This document shows positions 60,499 to 64,000 of a DNA stretch of 64,000 nucleotides, piece by piece (the first letter of the stretch is position 1; every line of letters starts with the position of its first letter). The position numbers were made by a program, and so were the translations under genes. The DNA is taken from assembly GCA_025929585.1 (NCBI GenBank), contig JAICPY010000010.1, forward strand, positions 1 through 64,000, in the 5' to 3' direction. Origin of the DNA: Steroidobacter sp. (GTDB taxonomy: Bacteria > Pseudomonadota > Gammaproteobacteria > Steroidobacterales > Steroidobacteraceae). The notes under the pieces are model-generated. The model was not told the DNA's origin. It did not search any database and saw nothing but the letters and a program-made list of their open reading frames with translations.

Positions 60499-61557
60499 CT
60501 ACGTTCCCACCGACGCCTTATCGATCTTCTCGCGTGCCTCCTGCTTCTCCCCTTCCGTCGCCTGCAATGTTTCCTGCTCGTGTTGCGCATCGGGCTCGTA
60601 TGCCAGTTCGATGAACACGGGGAAGTGATCCGAGCCAACGTGTGGCAGCCGCTTGAACGAGCGTAGCCGGAAGTGCCGCGAGCTGAAGACGTGGTCGAGG
60701 GGAAACCGAATCAGCGGCCAGTTCGCATTGAACGTGTGAAAGAATCCGCGGCCGACTCGTGGATCTAACAAGCCACTGATCGATTGGAACAGATCGTTAG
60801 TGCGCGACCAGGCGACGTCATTCAGATCTCCGGCAACCAATGCAACCTTATCCTTCCCCTTCAGTTCTTTAGCGACGATGAGCAGCTCGGCGTCGCGTTC
60901 GGTCGTGCCGTCGCTCTCCTGAGGAGCTGGAGGCCGCGGATGAAGACAGCGTAACTCGACTTGCTGTCCGCTGCGCAACACTACGCGTGCATGTATCGAT
61001 GGAATGTCATCTTCGATCAAGAACTTCACTTGCGGGTTTCGCAGCTCGAGCTTGCTATACAGGAGCATTCCATAGGTGTTGTCTTGGGGACGTTTGACGG
61101 TATACGGATGAGTGCGCTCGAGCGACGCGAGCTCACGCTGCCAACGATCGTCGGTTTCAACCGTGAGAACGACATCAGGCTCGTGCTCCTGAATGAGACC
61201 GAGGAGCTTATCGCTCTTGTCGTTCTCCATTAGCACATTCGCTATCAACAGCCGAATTGTATTGTCGGCTTCGCCGTGCTTGCTTGCCTGCACCTGTTTT
61301 CGTGCCAAGCGTGTGTACGGATACATGCGAAAGCATTGGTAGAACACGCTCAGCGATAAGGCAGCAAGGAATACGTTCTCGGCGACGCCCGGATCTTCGC
61401 GAATAATCAAGTAAACAGCGAAGATCAGGATCAAGAGCACAGTGATCTGCAGGCGGGGAAAATCCAGCACGCGAATCCACCATGCATCCGCTCGCAGCAG
61501 CGCAAGCGCGGTAGCGACGATCATCAACGAACCGAGCGCGATCAGCAGAGCTTCCAC
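60499..61557 (-). CDS. Endonuclease/exonuclease/phosphatase family membrane protein
   Basis: Protein of 352 residues. Two N-terminal membrane helices (ALLIALGSLMIVATALALL and ITVLLILIFAVYLII) precede an EEP-superfamily domain: IRLLIANVLMEN with metal-binding Asn, DVVLTVETDD with the metal-binding Glu, VALVAGDLNDVAWS (Asp/Asn pair) and HVGSDHFPVF (catalytic His). It could be a membrane-anchored phosphodiesterase or nuclease of the YafD type. The start is a GTG at 61557. Confidence 0.85.
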   Translation of the reverse strand: MEALLIALGSLMIVATALALLRADAWWIRVLDFPRLQITVLLILIFAVYLIIREDPGVAENVFLAALSLSVFYQCFRMYPYTRLARKQVQASKHGEADNTIRLLIANVLMENDKSDKLLGLIQEHEPDVVLTVETDDRWQRELASLERTHPYTVKRPQDNTYGMLLYSKLELRNPQVKFLIEDDIPSIHARVVLRSGQQVELRCLHPRPPAPQESDGTTERDAELLIVAKELKGKDKVALVAGDLNDVAWSRTNDLFQSISGLLDPRVGRGFFHTFNANWPLIRFPLDHVFSSRHFRLRSFKRLPHVGSDHFPVFIELAYEPDAQHEQETLQATEGEKQEAREKIDKASVGT

Positions 61558-61647
61558 GATGTCCGAACCCTTATGGCGATGTCCTACACAATGCGGGGTG
61601 GGTCTGATTGGGTCCCACAACTCCCTACCCACGACTCCCTATAGGCT

Positions 61648-61674
61648 TGTCACAGCGGCGCAGAGTGCTTCGTC
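61648..61674 (+). promoter_or_regulatory. ECF41-type promoter upstream of sigma gene
   Basis: TGTCACA (61648-61654), a 16-bp spacer, then CGTC (61671-61674) matches the ECF41 consensus TGTCACA-N16-CGTC exactly, 111 bp before the sigma-factor start. It suggests autoregulation. The match is seen directly; transcription from it is inferred. Confidence 0.8.
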
Positions 61675-61784
61675 TTGGCTATGCGCGGCATTGGCCGCCT
61701 ACAGGCGCAGCCCGGTAAGCACACTTCGGGATTCTGCGGACTGGCATTGCAACGCGCGCCGTTTTAAATAGATGGGCTCATCGC

Positions 61785-62687
61785 ATGAACTCCAAAGATC
61801 AAGCGTTTGCAACATTGCGTCCGCGGTTGATGGCCACGGCTTATCGCATGCTCGGGACGCGTTCCGACGCCGAAGATGTGGTGCACGATGCATGGCTGCG
61901 TTGGCACGCCACGGATCACGAGCAAGTCCAATCCACTGAAGCGTGGCTCAAAACGACGGTCATGCGCTTGTCGATCGATCGGCTACGCAGAGCGAAAATC
62001 GAGCGCAACAAGTACTTCGGGCCTTGGCTCCCCGAACCGCTATCGGATGCGGATCTGCACTCTCCCGACATGGCGCTAGAACGCGATGAGGACGTCTCGA
62101 TCGCCTTCATGAACTTGCTCGAGACGCTTTCGCCCGAAGAGCGCGCCGTGTTCGTATTGCACGACATCCTCGATGATGACTATGTCGACATCGCCGAGAC
62201 GGTCGGTAAGTCGCAGGCTGCCTGCCGGCAGATGGTCCATCGGGCACGCGAGAAGTTGACCTCCAAGCGCCGGCGCTACTTGGTCGACGATGCGACTCGC
62301 ACAAGACTGCTGGAGCGATTCATCGAAGCTGCGAATCGGGGCGACCGTGAAGAGTTGATGAAGATCTTCAGTACGGACGCCGTTATGACGTCCGATGGCG
62401 GCGGCAAGGCCATTGCGGTGCAGCGCCCATTGGTCGGCGCCGAGAGAATCTCGTGGCTGTGGTTTGCCGTTTCGCGTCGTGCGCAATTACTTGCTGAACG
62501 GCGCATTGTCCGCGTCAATGGCGAGCCCGCGATTGCCTCCTTCTACAATGGCCGGCTTCATTCGGTCGCCACCGTCGACACCGATGGCGAATGCATTCGA
62601 GCGTTCTACACCATTGCCAATCCGGACAAGCTTCGTGCGTTCCAGAATCTTGTCACACAAACCGAGAGTGCCACGTCTTCAGGGTGA
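61785..62687 (+). CDS. ECF41-group RNA polymerase sigma factor
   Basis: Sigma-70-type factor of 300 residues. Region 2 has DVVHDAWLRW (about 34-43) and region 4 has VGKSQAACRQMVHRAREKL. The linker WLPEP (about 81) and C-terminal SnoaL-like extension with DGGGKAIA and NPDKL (about 280) are hallmarks of group ECF41, whose C-terminal domain replaces an anti-sigma factor. It lies upstream of an AhpD-like gene and a cupin, typical ECF41 targets. Two matching promoters flank it (61648 and 62651). Confidence 0.93.
   Translation: MNSKDQAFATLRPRLMATAYRMLGTRSDAEDVVHDAWLRWHATDHEQVQSTEAWLKTTVMRLSIDRLRRAKIERNKYFGPWLPEPLSDADLHSPDMALERDEDVSIAFMNLLETLSPEERAVFVLHDILDDDYVDIAETVGKSQAACRQMVHRAREKLTSKRRRYLVDDATRTRLLERFIEAANRGDREELMKIFSTDAVMTSDGGGKAIAVQRPLVGAERISWLWFAVSRRAQLLAERRIVRVNGEPAIASFYNGRLHSVATVDTDGECIRAFYTIANPDKLRAFQNLVTQTESATSSG
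62651..62677 (+). promoter_or_regulatory. ECF41-type promoter upstream of AhpD gene
   Basis: TGTCACA (62651-62657), a 16-bp spacer and CGTC (62674-62677) form a second exact ECF41 consensus, overlapping the last codons of the sigma gene and 61 bp before the AhpD-like start. Confidence 0.85.
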
Positions 62688-62737
62688 GCCTATGCCGCAC
62701 CGGTTGATGCGCAGGCTTTTTCAAACTGGAGGATTCC

Positions 62738-63223
62738 ATGGCTGCACGTATTTCATTCAACCCAACTCGCGATCGCGACGTCCTCGCGGCAATGTTCAAT
62801 CTAGGGGCGACGGTGAGGCGTTCAGGTCTCGAGCATTCGCTGGCCTCGCTGGTCAAGGTGCGGGTATCGCAGATCAACGGATGCGGCTTCTGCATCGACA
62901 TGCATACCAAAGACGGCAGAGCCGAGGGAGAGACAGAACAGCGGTTCTACTTACTGAGCGCCTGGCGTGAAGCCTCGATCTACTCCGATAGGGAACGTGC
63001 CGCACTTCGATGGGCGGAAGCCGTGACGAAGCTAGACCACCAGCATGTGCCGGACGAAATATACGCTGAAGTACGCAAGCATTTCAGCGAGCAAGAATTG
63101 GTCGCTTTGACTCTATTGATCGTAGAAATCAACGGCTGGAATCGTTTCGCAATTTCCTTCCAATATCCGGTGGGTGATTATCAACCGGGATCGCTACAGA
63201 CGTTGCGTACGGCGGCAACGTGA
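62738..63223 (+). CDS. AhpD/carboxymuconolactone decarboxylase-like peroxidase
   Basis: Protein of 161 residues of the AhpD-like fold: KVRVSQINGCGFCIDMH gives the redox-active CxxC pair with the following His, typical of alkylhydroperoxidase D. GGAGGA lies 5 bases before the ATG. It is the usual partner gene of ECF41 sigma factors and is preceded by an ECF41-type promoter. Its physiological substrate is not known. A cupin gene follows by 38 bp. Confidence 0.92.
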   Translation: MAARISFNPTRDRDVLAAMFNLGATVRRSGLEHSLASLVKVRVSQINGCGFCIDMHTKDGRAEGETEQRFYLLSAWREASIYSDRERAALRWAEAVTKLDHQHVPDEIYAEVRKHFSEQELVALTLLIVEINGWNRFAISFQYPVGDYQPGSLQTLRTAAT

Positions 63224-63261
63224 TCTGCACAGCCAGCCGTAGTCAATCCAGGAGCGAGCAT

Positions 63262-63681
63262 ATGAATTTATATCTTCTGAAAGTCCTGCCTCTGTGCATT
63301 CTTGCGGGCGCTACGTTGGCGGCTGGTCAAGCGCAGAACGCGCCGCCCGCTGTTGCGAAGCCGCTCCTTACTCGTTCATTGCCAGATCTCCCAGGCAAGG
63401 AAGCGGTGATGCTTACCGTGGAGTACCCTCCGGGCGGCGCTTCCGCGGCACATCGCCACGAGGCGAATACCTTCGTATATATGCTCGAAGGATCCGTCGT
63501 CATGCAGGTTCGCGGCGGGCAGGAAGTCACGTTGAAACCCGGCGACACGTTCTACGAGTCGCCGACCGATGTCCACAGCGTGTCGCGCAACGCGAGCGCC
63601 ACTCAGCCTGCGAAATTCCTAGTCGTGTTCATCAAAGATCAAGGCAAGCCCGGCACGATTGCCGTGTCCCACTCTCAATGA
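63262..63681 (+). CDS. Exported cupin-domain protein
   Basis: Protein of 139 residues. A signal peptide (LKVLPLCILAGATLAAGQ) precedes a single-domain cupin: PPGGASAAHRHEANTFVYMLEG (cupin motif 1 with His/Glu metal ligands) and PGDTFYESPTDVHSVS (motif 2). AGGAG lies 7 bases before the ATG. Part of the ECF41 module by position. Likely a metal-dependent small-molecule binding or dioxygenase-type protein. Confidence 0.88.
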   Translation: MNLYLLKVLPLCILAGATLAAGQAQNAPPAVAKPLLTRSLPDLPGKEAVMLTVEYPPGGASAAHRHEANTFVYMLEGSVVMQVRGGQEVTLKPGDTFYESPTDVHSVSRNASATQPAKFLVVFIKDQGKPGTIAVSHSQ

Positions 63682-63684
63682 TGT

Positions 63685-64000
63685 TCAGGTGAGTTGCGAG
63701 AGCACTAGGATCACGATGAATCCCACCGTCGCGGCGAGCGCACCGGATTGTTGATAGTGACGCTGTTCGGATTCAGGCAGCAAATCGGTAATCGTGAGAT
63801 AGAACATGCCGCCTGCGCCGGCCGCAAAGAGCAACGACAGCATCGGGTCTTCGAGTCCTCGTAGCAGGAACCAGCCCAGAATTGCAGAGAACAGCACAGA
63901 GGCACCTACTAGCGACGTCCAACCCAAGACCCTGCACCTGGTTCGGATCTGATTGGATCGAGACTCGCCGCGAATCAATTCGCCGATCGATAGCCCCTCA
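63685..64000 (-). CDS. ZIP-family metal transporter (partial, runs off the window)
   Basis: The visible 105 residues end at 63685 and the frame continues past 64000. The C-terminal part has three hydrophobic helices and the stretch AAGAGGMFYLTITDLLPESEQR; the part beyond reads EGLSIGELIRG, as in the ZIP zinc/iron transporter metal-site helix. The start of the gene lies outside this window. Confidence 0.7.
   Translation of the reverse strand, partial: EGLSIGELIRGESRSNQIRTRCRVLGWTSLVGASVLFSAILGWFLLRGLEDPMLSLLFAAGAGGMFYLTITDLLPESEQRHYQQSGALAATVGFIVILVLSQLT

Follow-up and report, generated by a model that had tools for sequence, protein, structure and literature searches.

A predicted ECF41 target promoter lies in frame within the last codons of the sigma factor gene upstream of an AhpD-like gene

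The ECF41 sigma factor gene described here, from a Steroidobacter sp. (contig JAICPY010000010.1; the whole stretch analyzed, 64,000 nucleotides, is called the window), carries in its last codons a sequence that, to judge from its letters and its place, is the promoter of the gene that follows; this target promoter is an in-frame part of the sigma gene, and the overlap is conserved among related loci. We read the locus as an autoregulated ECF41 module, with a probability of about 0.85, in which an upstream site (P1) would drive the sigma factor together with its targets, a second site (P2) in the last sigma codons would drive the targets alone, and the C-terminal tail of the sigma factor would be a by-product.

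The sigma factor gene (61785..62687, + strand) encodes 300 residues comprising sigma2 and sigma4 domains (PF04542, Sigma70_r2, 1.9e-13; PF08281, Sigma70_r4_2, 1.1e-12) and a C-terminal extension of about residues 165-300, in which no Pfam SnoaL match was found at 1e-3. The protein matches the full-length NCBIfam model SigJ (PRK09636) with 301.3 bits, above the cut-off of 271, and falls just below the cut-off for SigX4 (TIGR02957; 317.3 bits versus 323.25). Its closest solved structure is that of Mycobacterium tuberculosis SigJ (5xe7), a SnoaL-fused ECF41 factor, which aligns over residues 7-284 and leaves the end of the tail (285-300) beyond the aligned part. A predicted structure of the sigma factor was set aside, as its quality (mean pLDDT 58.7, pTM 0.37) was too poor to judge the extension. 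A sequence-only reading of this DNA had named DAWLRW, WLPEP, DGGGK, and NPDKL as ECF41 hallmarks, and all four are present in the open reading frame (ORF). DGGGK (residues 204-208) and NPDKL (279-283) both fall in the extension and are reportedly two of the three ECF41 extension motifs of Wecke et al. NPDKL was not found in the main text of that paper (PMC3426412), which names WLPEP, here residues 81-85, as characteristic of ECF41 in the sigma2-sigma4 linker.

Downstream lies a gene for an AhpD-like/carboxymuconolactone decarboxylase protein (62738..63223, + strand; PF02627, E = 1.9e-20; ahpD_dom above cut-off) with a CxxC motif (CGFC), which we predict to be the main target. A small cupin gene (63262..63681, + strand; Cupin_2, E = 3.9e-18) follows and probably shares its transcript; that the cupin may also be a target, as the earlier reading had it, is suggested by where it lies, 38 bases past the AhpD-like gene. 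Among same-genus loci, tblastn (E 1e-5 or better) detected a downstream cupin in L035, L037, and L020, and none in the six loci L036 and L021-L025. The divergent gene upstream of the sigma gene belongs to the endonuclease/exonuclease/phosphatase family (Pfam), and none of the neighbors scanned (this protein, the AhpD-like protein, and the cupin) is an anti-sigma factor. Searches of 61550-63800 found no terminator-like site and, on the + strand, no sigma-70-like site for basal sigma expression; 61500-62800 gave no Rfam match. In its sequence features, then, the locus is an ECF41 sigma module with an ECF41-type promoter, an AhpD target, and no adjoining anti-sigma gene.

The sequence-only reading had reported the motif TGTCACA-N16-CGTC at two places, and both are exact, on the + strand, with spacers of 16 bases. 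P1 (61648..61674) ends 110 bases before the sigma start codon. P2 (62651..62677) lies inside sigma codons, as had been noted, and wholly within the last 12, where it covers GTC ACA ... ACG TCT; from the last base of its -10 element to that of the sigma stop codon there are 10 bases. Shuffled versions of the window give an expectation of 0.05 exact matches, and two occurred in 0 of 100. The earlier reading had also proposed a genome scan, with random frequency counting against the motif. In the organism's own assembly (5.13 Mb, 297 contigs, 97.58% complete) there are two exact copies, both at the sigma locus, against two for the reversed control and about 2.4 expected from our own base counting, so that random frequency is indeed what the number amounts to; it is nevertheless the wrong test for a regulon of a single locus. 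The number, being equal to the control, therefore proves nothing, and the place does: the non-chance part is that both copies stand where ECF41 promoters are expected. Conservation in a first set of related loci supports this: sites carrying no more than one mismatch were present ahead of the sigma gene in 78 of 126 loci and near the sigma stop in 59 of 127; 59 letter-shuffled motifs gave means of 0.14 and 0.15 loci, respectively, and spacers of 14, 15, 17, and 18 bases occurred in none.

A larger set of 214 loci was assembled from the earlier matches under E-value limits and 87 of 101 new matches, with the duplicates L017-L019 dropped for L035-L037; the other 14 new matches had E-values of 3e-72 or above and were left out, while four equally weak ones were included. 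A locus was counted as having AhpD downstream if the window AhpD gave a tblastn match at E 1e-5 or better that began between -10 and 260 bases relative to the sigma stop; other target types, distant AhpD relatives, and loci cut by contig ends therefore count as lacking it, as does L028, whose contig ends in TGTCACAGAA just past the stop. A P2-type site (no more than two mismatches, a spacer of 16, and a position between -110 and +130 relative to the sigma stop) is present in 125 of the 127 loci that have AhpD downstream by this definition and absent from all 87 others, six of which have a "far" site beside a displaced AhpD. P1 and P2 occur together in 123/127 of the former, and P1 is still present in 41/87 of the latter. 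Within the genus, P1 is exact in 8 of 9 orthologous loci that have upstream DNA (the window counted in), the DNA around it has diverged in three aligned loci, and the P1 leaders of three relatives have little in common besides the motif; the same-genus locus L022 has no recognizable P1 (best site, three mismatches).

Several further features of the two sites were observed. The two sites agree in the seventh base of the -35 element (A or G) in 52 of 58 related loci; as a case of co-evolution this is not significant on the tree, where independent pairs number about two same, none opposite, and three undifferentiated (p about 0.5), and it stands as a lead only. The two spacers of the window (61655-61670 and 62658-62673) have AGAGTGC in common at an equal offset, and by eye the window P1 is closer to the P2 of relative G013 than to the P1 of G013, possibly reflecting a local copying event. 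Six bases past the CGTC of P1, an ATG begins a 28-codon ORF (61681-61767) in a frame other than that of sigma; 17 bases lie between its end and the sigma start, and G013 lacks an ATG at this place. Across 166 related loci with P1, 132 have an ATG in the sigma frame 6-9 bases past the CGTC (for example L066, L067, and L098), as compared with an ATG in any frame at such a distance for 55 of 996 control places. Sigma mRNA made from P1 would thus be leaderless or nearly so in these 132 loci; the window, with 110 bases from CGTC to sigma start, is an exception.

Among the 131 loci with P2, the site is embedded in the last sigma codons in 85, begins after the stop in 40 (-35 element 1-128 bases past it), and is far from it in six. 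A single reading frame is used in 85/85 embedded loci, and the "after" loci split 13, 18, and 9 among the three frames. The distance from the -35 start to the end of the stop codon is 34 or 37 bases in 83 of the 85, and 31 and 82 in the remaining two. Embedding is seen in G796, in 5 of the 10 orthologous loci from the window's own genus, and, in another family (f28), in 44 of the 47 rows of one branch (the other three being displaced) and in 35 of 65 loci with AhpD downstream from a broader sample; a further f28 branch, of 19 rows, lacks P2 throughout. Rows without P2 were left out of the trees with two exceptions, namely the tree used for the seventh-base comparison and the 47-row f28 branch, which kept such rows at 41% identity or more (the partial L034 was left out), and the state-change tree, which kept three outgroup rows. 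The best tree has nine switches between embedded and non-embedded states, at least six of them forced by well-supported branches. A reversible model (lnL -36.8; deepest node 3% embedded) and a loss-only model with an embedded ancestor (lnL -37.1) fit about equally; a gain-only model fits badly (lnL -78.6) because "far" rows nested among embedded rows need losses. Relic tail ends, present at 6 of 40 "after" loci versus 5 of 129 at P1, are weak evidence on direction.

The 17-residue tail that follows NPDKL (62634..62684, + strand) has its Val-Thr and Thr-Ser fixed by the letters of P2, and the corresponding pattern VT-x5-[APSTV]-S is found in 85/85 embedded sigma proteins and 0/129 others (0/40 "after", 0/6 "far", 0/83 without P2). 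On the tree of the 44 embedded f28 loci, promoter bases 2-6 and 24-27 show no change, base 1 shows two and base 7 three, and the 16 spacer positions show 4-14 each; since "embedded" allows at most two mismatches with a spacer of 16, the near-invariance of the 11 promoter letters is partly by definition, and this filter removed no row of the f28 branch used. At the protein level, the Val, Thr, and Ser codons of the tail have no amino-acid change, as compared with 12-19 in each of the five spacer codons and a mean of 2.8 for body columns. At the three fourfold sites that the promoter locks, the changes add up to three; sets of three drawn from the fourfold sites of conserved body codons (mean 6.6 changes per site; 32 columns, two with none) reach so low a total in 11 of 4960 cases. 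Three loci (L097, L100, and L117) have an additional gene between sigma and AhpD, some 160 codons long and of an orphan immunity type (Pfam Imm26 in L097 and L117, the two scanned); here P2, the old tail codons, and their stop are kept about 120-155 bases before the AhpD match, and the sigma factor ends in an unrelated tail. By sequence comparison, loss of the tail has thus been tolerated by the sigma factor and the promoter retained by AhpD in these three loci, which we do not count as independent events because well-supported branches force only one change, though the tree separates them.

These results bear on what the tail is. If Val-Thr ... Ser were a motif that the sigma protein needs, the promoter match would simply follow from the peptide, and the single frame in all embedded loci, together with the fact that the tail belongs to the regulatory extension, would fit. 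The freezing of synonymous sites as well, the absence of the pattern from non-embedded sigma proteins, and the three insertion loci, where the promoter stayed with AhpD and not with sigma, speak against this, as does the upstream copy P1, which encodes no tail; we find a protein requirement very hard to credit and consider the tail best explained by constraint at the DNA level. It is also quite improbable that a single site, P1 or P2, does the work and the other is a fossil or chance match. The chance-level number of exact matches genome-wide would suit such a locus, as would the fact that most of the >ECF> >COE> loci surveyed in PMC3426412 have one site or none, but the related loci with a downstream AhpD match nearly all keep both, and they hold the spacing of 16 strictly while the spacer sequences have diverged.

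A different matter is whether the overlap itself is of any use. It may be a neutral accident, in which the stop codon drifted through a promoter lying near the sigma end without regulatory meaning, and we regard this as somewhat more probable than not; it is compatible with the autoregulated module and opposes only the reading of the overlap as selected. The repeated state switches on the tree point to drift, as does the loose length of the tail: L020, sister to the window's clade, has an in-frame TGA right before the -35 element, past which the same frame reads on through P2 to a stop, and the sigma ORF of L037 (G005) has lost the stop after P2, extends 15 residues further, and ends at a new stop overlapping the AhpD start. 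Against drift stand the common frame and the 84 of 85 embedded loci that end 31-37 bases from the -35 start, yet a single ancestral embedding could explain both, because the loss-only and reversible models fit about equally. The alternative, which we consider doubtful, is that P2 is a selected part of the sigma coding sequence in a large gammaproteobacterial ECF41 branch, its frame kept so that the transcript starts at the stop and traffic from P1 tunes the ratio of target to sigma. If true, the end of a fused regulatory domain would be written by the promoter it controls, and the traffic would be transcription, or ribosomes stopping over P2.

For the autoregulated module, the order of events may be pictured as follows. 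Basal sigma factor would be kept inactive by its fused C-terminal domain, as expected by analogy with other ECF41 factors, in which truncation of the extension caused loss or gain of activity (PMC3426412), and a signal would lift this inhibition. Active sigma factor would then transcribe sigma, AhpD, and cupin genes from P1, giving positive feedback, and, from P2, an AhpD-cupin mRNA that does not include sigma, so that the target would be made in excess of its regulator. From the position of the -10 element, P2 mRNA would be expected to start at about the sigma stop codon. The adjoining antioxidant-type gene is probably switched on from P2, and the tail peptide, here LVTQTESATSSG, would be a by-product of promoter retention. 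The earlier proposal of a self-amplifying circuit is supported as regards ECF41 promoters at the sigma and AhpD genes, which agree with the published promoter and target (PMC3426412) and with the paired sites of related loci; the self-amplification we infer, and since published ECF41 activity is restrained by the fused domain, feedback would run only once the sigma factor is active.

Beyond the locus, nine further TGTCACA-N15-17-CGT matches occur in the organism's own genome, most of them inside long ORFs (by eye, ORFs of at least 100 residues); one with a spacer of 15, in L013, follows an ORF by 27 bases, and over 600 bases separate it from the next forward ORF listed. We put forward none of the nine as a promoter and thus no extended regulon in this genome. 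Across 14 genomes of the genus the exact motif occurs 40 times and the reversed control 14 times; the sigma locus accounts for 14 of the 40 and other places for 26, which leaves room for further targets and larger regulons in relatives. Among the 28 sites viewed (L038-L065), several are at the sigma locus and most others inside ORFs. One exact site (L048; G006 contig 116, positions 131-157) ends eight bases before the ATG of a gene for a 391-residue Pyr_redox_2 oxidoreductase; judging by this placement the gene is possibly a second ECF41 target in that relative, and oxidoreductases are among the target classes named for ECF41 (PMC3426412).

Much of this arrangement has precedent. The ECF41 promoter was published in 2012 (Wecke et al., PMC3426412), start-site-mapped and reporter-tested in two ECF41 systems, those of Bacillus licheniformis and Rhodobacter sphaeroides, with COE genes as the only targets that the study reports having detected. 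Among its 53 >ECF> >COE> loci, the motif was found before the ECF gene in 14 and before the COE gene in 24, with both promoters in about 20%; promoter and two-promoter loci being already published, the basic circuit is therefore known. The window locus resembles these two systems in its promoter, its CMD/AhpD neighbor with CxxC, its fused C-terminal extension, and the absence of an anti-sigma gene among its neighbors. It also resembles that of Sinorhizobium meliloti RpoE9, an ECF41 factor with one CxxC carboxymuconolactone decarboxylase target and an ECF41 motif upstream of the mapped target start (PMC6180224); there, however, the target precedes the sigma gene and a single mapped start lies upstream of the pair. 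Unlike in the account of PMC3426412, the target promoter here is embedded in the sigma gene at 85 of the 131 P2-bearing loci; wording on a promoter within coding sequence was not found in the main text of that paper, where "overlap" refers to two structural genes only.

Our search of the open-access literature found no earlier description of a conserved overlap between a promoter and a sigma tail. Promoters inside the codons of a preceding gene are a known bacterial arrangement; what sets the present ones apart from ordinary internal promoters is that the gene they overlap codes for the very sigma factor expected to recognize them and that the overlap keeps one frame in 85 loci. The sigma-AhpD circuit is thus ordinary and known, and the conserved in-frame overlap of promoter and sigma gene is, as far as that search shows, new.

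ECF41 is a widespread group of sigma factors without an obvious anti-sigma factor, and the present module, with what seems to be a regulon of one locus, is readily testable. Its promoter within codons is a clean natural case of selection at the DNA level overriding a protein tail. It also carries a warning for the family, in that conserved tail residues in sigma factor alignments can be promoter letters and not protein function.
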